A stretch of DNA of 48,979 bases from Candidatus Dojkabacteria bacterium (GTDB lineage Bacteria > Patescibacteriota > Dojkabacteria > SC72): contig JAGPFQ010000001.1 in NCBI GenBank assembly GCA_018056375.1, positions 311,361 to 360,339 on the forward strand, given 5' to 3'. A program made the translations under genes and the position numbers. Each line of letters begins with the position of its first letter. Position 1 is the stretch's first letter. The notes below the pieces were generated by a model. That model was not told where the DNA came from. It searched no databases and worked only from the letters and a program-made list of their open reading frames with translations. Positions 30,107-33,931 of this stretch are shown one piece after another.

Positions 30107-30286
30107 ATGGCAGTAAATAAACCTTATGGAGATAATCAAAGAAAAGGACAAGTTAGAAAGAGAGTTCAAGTAAAAAATCCTAAGACTAAAAGATATGTAA
30201 AGATTAATACAGAAACAAAGAAGTTTATGGATAATAAAGCTAAGAAACATAGTAAGTTTAAGGGGGTTAGGAAGTTAAAGAAGTAA
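30107..30286 (+). CDS. Small basic protein, unknown
   Basis: A 59-residue, strongly basic protein (AVNKPYGDNQRKGQVRKR, then NPKTKRYVKINTETKKFMDNK and KFKGVRKLKK). The charge suggests nucleic-acid binding or contact with a phage or R-M component. The frame is open a little further upstream, but the ATG at 30107 follows TGGTATAAT. Its stop abuts the next ATG (TAAATG). From general memory, similar small proteins occur beside type I R-M genes in candidate-phylum genomes; this was not checked. Confidence 0.6.
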   Translation: MAVNKPYGDNQRKGQVRKRVQVKNPKTKRYVKINTETKKFMDNKAKKHSKFKGVRKLKK

Positions 30287-30952
30287 ATGGACTATATAAT
30301 GAGAGATCATATAGAAAAATATAAAAAACTTAAAGAAAATAAGACTAAAGAATATGTAGAATTAGATAAAGAAGTAAAAATTTTACTAAGCGAAATTTCA
30401 CATAATATTATTACTAAACAGAAGAGCAAAGAAATTGTTGATAACATAGAAAAAAGAAACTTGGCTAAAGATGAACACTTTATCTTAGGAACATATTTTC
30501 CTATTTTAATCAGCTCTGTAATAAAAGCAGTCAATTTTCTCTATGGAGAAGACAAGGATTTACTTGACCCTGCAGGACAAGAAGAGGCTTTAAGTTCACG
30601 ATTAAGAAGTTATATTGAAACTAACCTAATAGAGGAATTTAATAATATTGAAGATATAAAAGTTGATTATAACTATACCAAGCATACACAAGAGCCGAAA
30701 AGGATAGATTCTATTGGAATAAAACCAGACATACTAATTCATAGGAGAAACACAGACACTTTCAATATTGTAGCAATAGAAATTAAACATCAAAGGAAGT
30801 TAAGCAAAAAAGATCTATGGAAATTAAAAAAGTTAACAGAGGATAATGGAGAATATAAGTATGACTTAGGAATAGGTTTAGAACTAAATAAAGAAGACTA
30901 TAATATGTACTTATTTTACAATGGGCAACAGATTAATGAAAAAGCAGTATAA
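30287..30952 (+). CDS. PD-(D/E)XK nuclease-like protein in the R-M locus
   Basis: 221 residues. An N-terminal helical half is followed by a nuclease-like core: GIKPDILIHRR, then FNIVAIEIKHQRK, the D...E-x-K arrangement of PD-(D/E)XK enzymes, with a following helix (KKDLWKLKKLTED). The segment DLLDPAGQEEALSSRLRSYI precedes it. It could be a nuclease or an inactive scaffold. The start abuts the small basic gene; the 3' end overlaps hsdS by 32 nt, so it is co-translated with the specificity subunit. The alternative ATG at 30299 is possible. Confidence 0.62.
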   Translation: MDYIMRDHIEKYKKLKENKTKEYVELDKEVKILLSEISHNIITKQKSKEIVDNIEKRNLAKDEHFILGTYFPILISSVIKAVNFLYGEDKDLLDPAGQEEALSSRLRSYIETNLIEEFNNIEDIKVDYNYTKHTQEPKRIDSIGIKPDILIHRRNTDTFNIVAIEIKHQRKLSKKDLWKLKKLTEDNGEYKYDLGIGLELNKEDYNMYLFYNGQQINEKAV

Positions 30953-32108
30953 ACTAAAAGATATAGGGGCATTCAAGGGTGGAGTAACTAGTATAAAGCC
31001 AACTGACTATGGGTATGGGACACCCTTTATAACTTATAAAAACATTTTTCAAAATCCTAAGGTAGATATCAACATGCTAACATTAATGAATGTACCGAAG
31101 AAAGATTTACAGAAATGTTCATGTAAATATGGAGATATCTTTTTCACAGCGTCCTCTGAGGTTTTTGAAGAAGTTGCTATGTCATCAGTATTACTTGACA
31201 AAGGAATAAAAAACTTAACTTTTAATGGATTCTCAAAGAGATTTAGACTATTCGATTTCAACACCCTATTACCTGAATATGCTGTTTATTATTTTAGATC
31301 TAGGGAATTTAGAAATTCAATAGCAGCAATAACAACCGGTGATATAAGATTTAATGTTAGTCAAGAGAATTTATCAAATATAACTATCACCCTCCCTCCC
31401 TTATCAGAACAAAAAAGAATAGCTAATATACTATCTTCTTTTGATAATAAGATAGAGATATTAAAGAAAGAAAATAAGATATTAGAAGATATAGCAGAGA
31501 ATATATTTAAAGAATGGTTTGTTAAATATAATTTTCCTAATAAAGATGGTAAACCATATAGAGATAGTAATGGTAAGATGATTGATAGTGAATTAGGACC
31601 TATACCTGATGGATGGAGGGTTGGGAAGTTGGGGGAGATAGTGGATGTTACTTCTGGTAAAGCACTGCCAAAAGATGAACTGAAATCCGATGGACAATAT
31701 CCTTTACTAGGAGCAAATGGAGAGATTGGGAGAACTGACAAATACTTATTGAACAAGACTGTTATTTATACTGGTAGAGTTGGAACATTAGGTAATGTTT
31801 TCCTTTATGATGCCCCTGCATGGTATTCTGATAACACTCTAATTATTTCTCCAACCCAAAGTTTCTTATATTACATTTTCTTTGTTCTTCAAAGACAACA
31901 ATTAGAAAAATTAGACAGAGGTTCTACTCAACCGTTGATAACACAAACAGATTTAAAAAATATTTTAGTTGTAATTCCAGATAATGATATATTAACCCTA
32001 TTCAACAAGACAATACAAGGAGGAAATGATAGAATTACAATGTCAAAAAGACTTCTGAAAACTTTAGATAAAATAAAAACTGCCCTATTATATAAATTGT
32101 TAGGGTAA
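30921..32108 (+). CDS. hsdS: Type I restriction-modification specificity subunit HsdS
   Basis: DNA-recognition subunit with two target-recognition domains. TRD1 spans about 1-165, the central conserved spacer (LPPLSEQKRIANILSSFDNKIE and the coiled coil to IFKEWFVKYNFP) about 160-215, TRD2 (DGWRVGKLGEIVDVTSGKALP onward) about 225-355, and a second helical spacer to the end. 395 residues is normal. It overlaps the PD-(D/E)XK gene by 32 nt and lies 8 nt before the OLD-like gene. An ATG at 30936 is an alternative start. No second hsdS or inverted TRD copies are present in the window. Confidence 0.93.
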   Translation: MGNRLMKKQYKLKDIGAFKGGVTSIKPTDYGYGTPFITYKNIFQNPKVDINMLTLMNVPKKDLQKCSCKYGDIFFTASSEVFEEVAMSSVLLDKGIKNLTFNGFSKRFRLFDFNTLLPEYAVYYFRSREFRNSIAAITTGDIRFNVSQENLSNITITLPPLSEQKRIANILSSFDNKIEILKKENKILEDIAENIFKEWFVKYNFPNKDGKPYRDSNGKMIDSELGPIPDGWRVGKLGEIVDVTSGKALPKDELKSDGQYPLLGANGEIGRTDKYLLNKTVIYTGRVGTLGNVFLYDAPAWYSDNTLIISPTQSFLYYIFFVLQRQQLEKLDRGSTQPLITQTDLKNILVVIPDNDILTLFNKTIQGGNDRITMSKRLLKTLDKIKTALLYKLLG

Positions 32109-32116
32109 AGTAAAAT

Positions 32117-33931
32117 ATGAGACTAAAATCATTCAGAATTAAAAATTACAAGTCAATCAAAGATACAGGAGATGTCTCGTTATCAGAAAACAACAATGTC
32201 TTTGTACTCGCTGGTCAAAACGAATCCGGCAAGAGTGCTATATTATCAGCTCTTTCAGATTTTTCCGATAACACAGAAGACTTCGACCCCGAAAGTACTC
32301 AATATTCATTAGAAGATGAAGAGCCAAAGCAATGTGTCGAATGTAAGTATCAAATAGAAGAAGATGATGAATTCTACAACAATGTAGTAATAGATATTTT
32401 CGAACATCTAGGACTTGAACTTACTGAAGAAGATATGGAAAGTATTTTGCCCCAATTAGAGTCTCACCGAGAATTCACCTTGATAAAAGAAAAGTTAGAC
32501 GATGGTGTTAGATTTTATATTGATAACGACATATATCAACTAATAAAAAACAAGGTCATTTTAGAATTTGTAACATATGATGAAGAAGATGTGGAAAACA
32601 CTACAGAAGAGGAAGAGAATAGTAACAAAGTAGGAAGTATTTCAGAAGAAGAACTTGCCGAGATAATATTCCCACACTGCCCTGCCATAACTTTGTTTGA
32701 TGATTTCTGCTCCTTACTACCTGACAGAATTCTTCTAAGTGATCTAAAAACAAAAAATGAAGAAGCCAAAGGATATATAGCAGTAAAAAACTTAGAAAAA
32801 ATTCTAGGTGTTGATTTTACAGTAAAAGAACAGCAAATAGAGAGTAAGCGATCTGTTCTTCAAGAAAATGAAAACACAACATTATCTGTAGACTTCCAAA
32901 AAGACTGGCAACAAAAAATATATAACACTAACGAAGTTAAATTAGAGTACAACTTCCAAAAAAGAAATGGAGAGGGAGCAGAAGGTTCATTTATTGAATT
33001 CTATGTCAGCACAAAAAAAGAGGAAAAACTCTATCCCCATCAAAGAAGCAAGGGTCTAATTTGGTTTCTCTCCTTTTGGTTAGAACTTAAAGCAAGGAGT
33101 TTAGAGGAAAATGGAACCGTTCTACTTCTAGATGAACCCGACCAACATCTTCACATAAAAGCCCAAAAAGATATGTTGAAATTAATAAACAAGCTAGCAG
33201 ACGATGGGAATCAGGTTCTTTATTCAACTCATTTGCCATATTTAATTGACATCGACAATTTAAGTGCAGTCAGGTTGGTATACAATAGTGAGGAAAGTGG
33301 CACCCAGATAGAAAAACTTACAACTGCTAAGATTGACAGTGCGAATAAAGCTGATGCACTAAAGCCAATAGCTGATGCAATAGGAATGGGTACAGATTAT
33401 TTTCTACATCCTGATAAAGATAAATGTATCATTTTGGAAGGTTTGTCCGACTTCTACTATTTTACAGCAATGAAACAAATCTTAGATCCAAAAGGTTCAT
33501 ATGTTTTCCTACCAGCCACAGGAATATCTAAAATTCCCGTTCTCATTTCTTTCTGTATAGGATACGGTAAAAAATGGAAGGTTATTACAGATGATGGTCC
33601 AACTGCTCGAAATATATTCCAAGATATTACTGAAAGTTTTTTTGATGGAGATGCAACAAATGGACAAAAGCAATTTCACATTTTAAATGGAATCAAAGGA
33701 GTGGAAAATATGTTTGATTATGAAGATCTTAAGCTGATAGATGGACAGATAGGTACCGATCGAAAAAACAAAGAAGATGTTGTTGGAAAAAAGCGAAAAG
33801 TTGTATTCTCTACTATGTTCTACGAAAGAATTAGAAACAAAAAAATTAAAAAAGAGGATCTATCTCCAGATACTATAGAAAGATTCGAAGATGTTTTTGC
33901 TTTTATCAAGAAAAGAACCAGAGCTTTATGA
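32117..33931 (+). CDS. OLD-family ATPase/TOPRIM nuclease-like protein
   Basis: 604 residues combining an ABC-type ATPase with a C-terminal TOPRIM domain, the plan of OLD and GajA-like nucleases. The Walker A loop is AGQNESGKSA (about 33-42), the Walker B/D-loop LLLDEPDQHLH (about 335) and the H-loop STHLPYLI. The TOPRIM acidic residues appear as IILEGLSDFYY (about 437) and VITDDGPTA (about 490). No UvrD-like partner (GajB) is adjacent. It sits between hsdS and hsdR, and its TGA overlaps the hsdR ATG (ATGA). To the eye it uses more C-ending and CG-containing codons than its neighbours. Confidence 0.8.
   Translation: MRLKSFRIKNYKSIKDTGDVSLSENNNVFVLAGQNESGKSAILSALSDFSDNTEDFDPESTQYSLEDEEPKQCVECKYQIEEDDEFYNNVVIDIFEHLGLELTEEDMESILPQLESHREFTLIKEKLDDGVRFYIDNDIYQLIKNKVILEFVTYDEEDVENTTEEEENSNKVGSISEEELAEIIFPHCPAITLFDDFCSLLPDRILLSDLKTKNEEAKGYIAVKNLEKILGVDFTVKEQQIESKRSVLQENENTTLSVDFQKDWQQKIYNTNEVKLEYNFQKRNGEGAEGSFIEFYVSTKKEEKLYPHQRSKGLIWFLSFWLELKARSLEENGTVLLLDEPDQHLHIKAQKDMLKLINKLADDGNQVLYSTHLPYLIDIDNLSAVRLVYNSEESGTQIEKLTTAKIDSANKADALKPIADAIGMGTDYFLHPDKDKCIILEGLSDFYYFTAMKQILDPKGSYVFLPATGISKIPVLISFCIGYGKKWKVITDDGPTARNIFQDITESFFDGDATNGQKQFHILNGIKGVENMFDYEDLKLIDGQIGTDRKNKEDVVGKKRKVVFSTMFYERIRNKKIKKEDLSPDTIERFEDVFAFIKKRTRAL

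Follow-up and report, generated by a model that had tools for sequence, protein, structure and literature searches.

A predicted OLD-family ATPase-TOPRIM protein encoded between hsdS and hsdR in a type I restriction-modification operon

The hsd operon and the gene between hsdS and hsdR

The window, a 48,979-nucleotide stretch of a 0.81-Mb, 98% complete Candidatus Dojkabacteria genome, contains a type I restriction-modification (R-M) operon whose genes, as assigned with Pfam and NCBIfam models, lie in the order hsdM, a DUF3800 gene, a 221-aa gene, hsdS, ORF604 and hsdR, with a D-Ala-D-Ala ligase-type gene 3' of hsdR on the opposite strand (Table 1). hsdS stops at 32108 and, after a gap of 8 nt, ORF604 begins at 32117; the stop of ORF604 overlaps the hsdR ATG (33928) in the form ATGA, and Pfam searches identified HsdS and HsdR as its neighbours, with no UvrD-like GajB beside it. 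The open reading frame coordinates and domain matches bear out the original prediction in these respects. That prediction also took the ATGA overlap to tie ORF604 synthesis to R-M; the overlap is real, but it is not specific, as many cargo genes of this slot have overlaps of the same type. We therefore rejected the overlap as a specific coupling signal, since it is common whatever gene occupies the space between hsdS and hsdR. A scan for promoters and terminators gave counts no higher than in shuffled sequence, and because the promoters were indistinguishable from chance, it is the spacing and strand of the genes that suggest expression from a single transcript.

The interval between hsdM and hsdS (the M-S slot) includes, besides the DUF3800 gene, a 59-aa ORF and the 221-aa gene. 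A TATAAT-like box lies immediately upstream of the 59-aa ORF, which matches a phage protein family; protein searches found one relative, at L134:3182-3364 in another genome (G033), and no hsd genes were found next to it. The 221-aa gene overlaps the start of hsdS by 32 nt, and its weak profile match and motif make it a possible new nuclease cargo of the M-S slot. Another N6-methylase gene of the source genome, distinct from hsdM, is truncated by a contig end (G000 contig 7, L135:1949-3088).

Table 1. Features of the hsd operon in the window, residues of ORF604, and cargo of the hsdS-hsdR (S-R) slot in related operons. Positions without a locus prefix refer to the window.
Feature	Position	Strand	Evidence or remarks
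hsdM, type I methyltransferase subunit, 510 aa	27486..29018	+	Pfam N6_Mtase 6e-113, HsdM_N; 80-83% identity to HsdM in three same-family operons
M-S slot cargo 1, DUF3800 protein, 265 aa	29125..29922	+	Pfam DUF3800 6.8e-15; DUF3800 gene in same slot of L090
M-S slot small basic 59-aa ORF	30107..30286	+	61% identical relative in G033; phrog_12550 1.5e-15
M-S slot cargo 2, 221 aa, possibly PD-(D/E)XK nuclease-like	30287..30952	+	weak PADLOC PD-Lambda-3_A 7e-6; D-x(n)-EIK motif by eye
hsdS, type I specificity subunit, 395 aa	30921..32108	+	Pfam Methylase_S 4.3e-37, two stretches
ORF604, predicted OLD-type ABC ATPase + TOPRIM protein, S-R slot cargo	32117..33931	+	one intact open frame, 604 aa; profiles, fold models, alignment
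hsdR, type I restriction subunit, 1048 aa	33928..37074	+	NCBIfam hsdR 1.1e-191; orthologs at 70-78% identity
Walker A GQNESGKS, residues 33-40	32213..32236	+	K39 in 34/35 aligned relatives, gap in the remaining one
Walker B LLLDEP, residues 336-341	33122..33139	+	D339 33/35, E340 35/35
TOPRIM motif 1 EGLSD (E441, D445)	33437..33451	+	E441 35/35, D445 32/35; TsOLD E377/D381 (PMC7049728)
TOPRIM DxD position D492-D493-G494, second acid lost	33590..33598	+	D492 35/35; position 494 D in 18/35, G in ORF604
E530, second-metal glutamate	33704..33706	+	34/35; equivalent to TsOLD E480 / BpOLD E508
K561, candidate catalytic basic residue	33797..33799	+	K or H in 32/35, R in 1; BpOLD K562-like
AAA_13 RloC/PrrC-type, S-R slot	L095, L098, L106		PADLOC PDC-S06; L106 also PrrC, 47 bits
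CBASS pair, S-R slot	L103:3724-5583		complete: SMODS/AGS_C cyclase + SLATT_4 membrane effector
Shedu, S-R slot	L105		
AbiP2-type reverse transcriptases, S-R slot	L090:5925-7400, L109:5665-7182		45% identical to each other; distant type I operons
HATPase_c_3 with HSDR_N_2, S-R slot	L094		
PIN_12, S-R slot	L099		
DUF4062, S-R slot	L101		
KAP NTPase, S-R slot	L107		
DUF3644, S-R slot	L110		

Domains, predicted fold and active site of ORF604

Pfam matches to AAA_15 and AAA_21 span residues 1-378 of ORF604, and this half has the organization of the N-terminal ABC ATPase of the OLD family, including Walker A and B motifs and an H-loop; H372 of the H-loop and R310-S311-x-G313 are conserved as well. 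The C-terminal TOPRIM fold of the family is present in the AlphaFold model of the C-terminal region and in the full-length match. PADLOC profiles ranked AriA first (97 bits), followed by Old (71), AbiLi (62), GajA and NsnB (61) and, lower, AriAB (56). Searched against solved structures, the profile of the ORF604 family placed TsOLD (6p74) first (8.6e-24), with GajA and AriA weaker, and scored 88 bits for TsOLD compared to 42 bits for the AriA structures. The full-length AlphaFold2 model (pLDDT 77.7) likewise had TsOLD 6p74 as its best PDB fold (E 1.1e-13), followed by GajA, with low global TM-scores that fit a multi-domain model of uncertain domain placement. The C-terminal 190 residues (model pLDDT 89) were most similar to the C-terminal regions of BpOLD and XccOLD (E about 5e-4, TM about 0.5), with TsOLD lower, and helices at residues 552-555, 560-573 and 584-603 follow the TOPRIM core in the model. 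Structure prediction, proposed as a check of the original assignment to OLD- or GajA-type ATPase-TOPRIM proteins, thus supports that assignment, with TsOLD and GajA as the nearest solved folds. Based on the structure matches, the trailing helices and the missing GajB, ORF604 is, by its predicted fold, an OLD-family protein that has class-1-like gene content and a class-2-like C-terminal helical region.

To assess the TOPRIM half, residues of ORF604 were mapped onto those tested in BpOLD (PMC6755086) and TsOLD (PMC7049728), and conservation was taken from an alignment of 35 proteins. Of the metal-A (E, DxD) and metal-B residues, E441, D445, D492 and E530 are retained, and these residues and K561 align with those of active OLD proteins; the second residue of the DxD motif is Gly494. 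A failure of the TOPRIM acids to align with active OLD proteins, which had been named as evidence against the original prediction, was thus for the most part not seen. ORF604 also has Asn531 at a position where 33 of the 35 proteins have Asp. Together, Gly494 and Asn531 could indicate a weakened nuclease, and ORF604 might then be a nuclease-poor or regulatory OLD protein, in which function lies with the ATPase half and the missing second DxD acid impairs the TOPRIM half. We consider this quite improbable, given the five retained residues listed above, the finding that about half of the relatives have no D at position 494, and the observation that BpOLD with the single D457A change still cleaved as before (PMC6755086), although in P2 OLD all single TOPRIM mutations tested, including D455A at the second DxD acid, abolished killing (PMC7049728). 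Because the results for these two proteins differ, the nuclease activity of ORF604 is not decidable from its sequence.

Cargo of the hsdS-hsdR slot and distribution of ORF604 relatives

Orthologs of HsdR (70-78% identity) were found in three genomes of the same family, and their operons keep the order M-S-R while the intervening genes differ. In all four operons, including that of the window, the content of the S-R slot is different: an AbiP2-type reverse transcriptase in L090 (PADLOC 590 bits), a different OLD-like gene, distantly similar to ORF604, in L092, and two genes without clear family in L091. A wider survey, in which 380 genomes of the phylum were searched for HsdR and the same-family operons were added, yielded 21 operons with a readable hsdS-hsdR interval, leaving out L096, with broken hsdM and hsdR, and L112-L113, at contig ends. 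One or more cargo genes occupied the slot in 20 of the 21, only L111 being empty; the genomes are variously related, so these counts are not independent events, but the operons were found through HsdR and not through their cargo, and the occupancy was therefore not selected for. Recognisable defence or nuclease/conflict domains were present in 13 of the 20 cargo-bearing slots (Table 1), the OLD-like gene of L092 being one of these cases, with a weak AbiJ-like gene alongside the AbiP2 reverse transcriptase of L109, and several further slots held cargo without family assignment. The original prediction that RloC-type guards use this position elsewhere was confirmed by the AAA_13 genes of three operons. 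Since related operons have altogether different defence genes at this position, the hsdS-hsdR interval resembles a loading dock for reserve defences more than an integral component of the restriction enzyme. In L096:9877-16477, both hsdM and hsdR of a related operon are broken by frameshifts or stops, suggesting that this hsd system is decaying in its genome.

The M-S interval is loaded in a similar manner, with DUF3800 (window and L090), DUF4145/PD-T7-4-like (L090), PIN_12 (L092), AbiTii (L107), Schlafen/AlbA (L109) and an OLD relative (L020). Proteins of 182-193 aa without Pfam match, 25-40% identical to each other, recur in this slot (L090:8647-9195, L092:5883-6464, L091:5989-6543). Closely related OLD genes occur in the order M-OLD-S-x-R at L127:6508-15498 and L020:3758-12413, where the insertion point differs from that in the window.

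No relative of ORF604 was detected at E<=1e-15 in the 31 other genomes of the same family, hsdR was not found in the 7 other genomes of the genus, and among 85 other genomes of the class there were just two weak relatives (28-29%). The nearest relative, at about 50% identity, is from G349 (L017), which belongs to the same phylum but lies outside the class of the window, and it stands alone, without an R-M partner, adjoining ftsEX-like genes. Vertical inheritance of ORF604 in the host lineage was rejected on the basis of its absence from the 31 family genomes and the absence of hsdR from the other genus members. A later arrival, which the original prediction had read from a codon choice less AT-biased than that of neighbouring genes, is supported by this distribution of relatives. 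The codon argument itself fails: GC3 of ORF604 is 0.263, compared to 0.245 +/- 0.038 in the 30 other genes of the window, and its codon log-likelihood is -1.415, compared to -1.333 +/- 0.091. Both values are within 1 sd, and ordinary codon usage of this kind was rejected as a mark of late arrival.

To examine the gene neighborhoods of the family, we used the phylum sample together with the classes of the window and of G349, in which 18 genomes had a relative. Nine of the 18 relatives had an N6-methylase or hsdS gene no more than four genes away, in various positions: S-OLD-R in the window, M-OLD-S in G185, G599 and G167, beside hsdS at a contig start in G395, after M-S in G610, and near type IIG-like or M-S fusion genes in G303, G506 and G505. 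A tenth (G022) comes after an MvaI/BcnI-type restriction gene. With 60 N6_Mtase genes in 116 genomes, roughly 0.5% of genes would be that close by chance, and the relatives are thus enriched about 100-fold near R-M genes, as a simple count that ignores kinship and sets nine cases including hsdS adjacency against a rough expectation covering N6_Mtase density only. In a quick tree, the sister of ORF604 was the stand-alone G349 gene (support 100); next to this pair were a gene from a viral contig and a Pontibacter gene in whose vicinity a type IIG enzyme is encoded, and the R-M-embedded members were scattered over several clades, forming no single lineage. The OLD-like cargo of L092 had a very long branch beside another long branch, and its placement was not used. 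The plasmid relatives inspected were alone or near BREX genes and had no hsd partner, and at L012 a relative lies close to BREX brxL. Viral contigs gave no matches in a pattern scan that used ORF604 alone, and 62 loci in a scan with the family profile.

Because R-M-embedded members span several clades and plasmid relatives are alone or near BREX, the family seems to be freely mobile and to have entered R-M operons on repeated occasions. Loci showing the gene as a mobile stand-alone had been named as evidence that would count against the original prediction, and the picture is divided, with the closest relative and the plasmid relatives on one side and the half of the phylum relatives that adjoin R-M genes on the other. 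A specific functional tie to R-M is weakened both by the stand-alone relatives and by the CBASS, Shedu, AbiP2, PIN and KAP genes that also occupy the slot.

Two readings of this tie can be weighed against these data. ORF604 could be a passive passenger that came to rest at a permissive site in a mobile operon and is functionally unrelated to its neighbours beyond shared expression, as the diverse and unrelated cargo of the slot, the similar loading of the M-S slot and the existence of stand-alone relatives might suggest. Near-universal occupation of the slot, often by defence-type genes, suggests instead selection for co-carriage, and together with the enrichment of relatives near R-M genes makes the passenger reading a very doubtful one. 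At the other extreme, ORF604 could be a dedicated guard that physically monitors HsdMSR, as PrrC does EcoprrI, and is set off if that enzyme is blocked by an anti-restriction protein of a phage. Like PrrC, it lies within a type I hsd operon, and it occupies the hsdS-hsdR slot that RloC/PrrC-type genes use in homologous operons; PrrC itself, whose host locus is of type IC, becomes active once EcoPrrI is inhibited by Stp of phage T4 (PMC12707154). The recurrence of relatives in R-M operons and the top PADLOC rank of AriA, which in PARIS senses the anti-restriction protein Ocr while AriB cuts tRNA (as summarised in PMC12839542), point in the same direction. However, the R-M-embedded members do not form one lineage and the family profile is nearer to TsOLD than to the AriA structures; and because the slot is shared with unrelated autonomous systems and an R-M partner is missing beside the closest relative, we regard a dedicated guard as rather unlikely.

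A candidate second-line effector and its known counterparts

On balance, ORF604 is probably an exchangeable and probably co-expressed abortive-infection effector, a second-line defence carried in a type I R-M operon. As such it would be self-contained, with an ABC ATPase joined to a TOPRIM nuclease domain, and its transcription and translation would probably accompany those of the R-M genes. The ATPase probably senses a state caused by the phage; when restriction fails or is blocked, it would release the nuclease, which might cut DNA or tRNA and stop the infection at the cell's expense. We prefer a second-line effector because of precedents in other systems: P2 Old, which needs ATPase and TOPRIM residues for killing recBC cells (PMC7049728); PARIS and PrrC, as described above; DarTG2, found between hsdS and hsdR in EPEC at a site that the authors call a potential hotspot (PMC12255303); and the OLD-ABC/TOPRIM modules proposed as backup effectors of BREX (PMC12839542). 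A bolder and still doubtful combination is conceivable, in which, among bacteria whose genomes are very small, the space between hsdS and hsdR in a single type I R-M lineage is a general dock that swaps complete back-up modules (OLD, RloC/PrrC-type, AbiP2 reverse transcriptase, CBASS and Shedu), and ORF604 is a fused PARIS-like guard, firing its TOPRIM nuclease once the restriction enzyme of its own operon is disabled by anti-restriction proteins.

Defence genes embedded in R-M operons, including the hsdS-hsdR slot, and recruitment of OLD-TOPRIM proteins to R-M-like systems have already been published. A limited literature search found no paper on an OLD gene within a type I hsd operon; the preprint of Payne et al. 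2024 on embedded defences (cited in PMC12255303) may hold such cases. ORF604 provides a concrete, testable case of an OLD ATPase-nuclease positionally tied to a type I restriction enzyme, and the cargo of this HsdR lineage, interchangeable and present in nearly every operon, is a more interesting part of the results than ORF604 itself. One slot in one R-M lineage, holding different known immune systems in different bacteria, offers a ready set of cases in which to ask if embedded effectors are guards of restriction or mere travellers. Candidates for new defence genes are the M-S genes with weak annotation and, in the sister operons, the uncharacterised cargo of the S-R slot.

Among known systems, the class 1 OLD proteins (P2 Old, Thermus scotoductus OLD and E. 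coli YbjD/OldB) share with ORF604 the single-gene ABC ATPase and TOPRIM layout without GajB, and TsOLD was the top match both by profile and by full-length fold. Class 1 genes have been described as single genes away from other defence genes (PMC10568477), a description of solitary OLD genes that the placement of ORF604 inside an R-M operon contradicts. ORF604 also differs from class 1 in the Gly at the second DxD position, and in its extra helices, since TsOLD has no C-terminal helical domain and the C-terminal part of ORF604 is closer to class 2. GajA of Gabija, a class 2 OLD, has the same ATPase-TOPRIM order, and the C-terminal helical region of ORF604 is like that of BpOLD and XccOLD; membership was nevertheless rejected, as no UvrD/PcrA/Rep-like GajB helicase is adjacent, the neighbours being HsdS and HsdR. 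The GajA profile also scored comparatively low. The retron-associated class 3 is characterized by an adjacent reverse transcriptase gene and ncRNA, and no reverse transcriptase gene was identified next to ORF604 with Pfam. PARIS (class 4) provides the top PADLOC match, AriA, but has separate ariA and ariB genes, whereas ORF604 combines ATPase and TOPRIM in one polypeptide with no separate AriB, and membership was rejected for this single fused gene. PrrC and RloC share the hsdS-hsdR slot with ORF604 but act through an anticodon-nuclease domain, to which the TOPRIM effector is unrelated. DarTG2 is likewise defence cargo between hsdS and hsdR, differing in cargo and host and regulated by RptR (PMC12255303). 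The OLD-ABC/TOPRIM modules at BREX loci are similar to ORF604 in that an OLD-TOPRIM protein has been recruited to an R-M-like operon, the host being BREX in that case (PMC12839542) and type I R-M in the operon described here.
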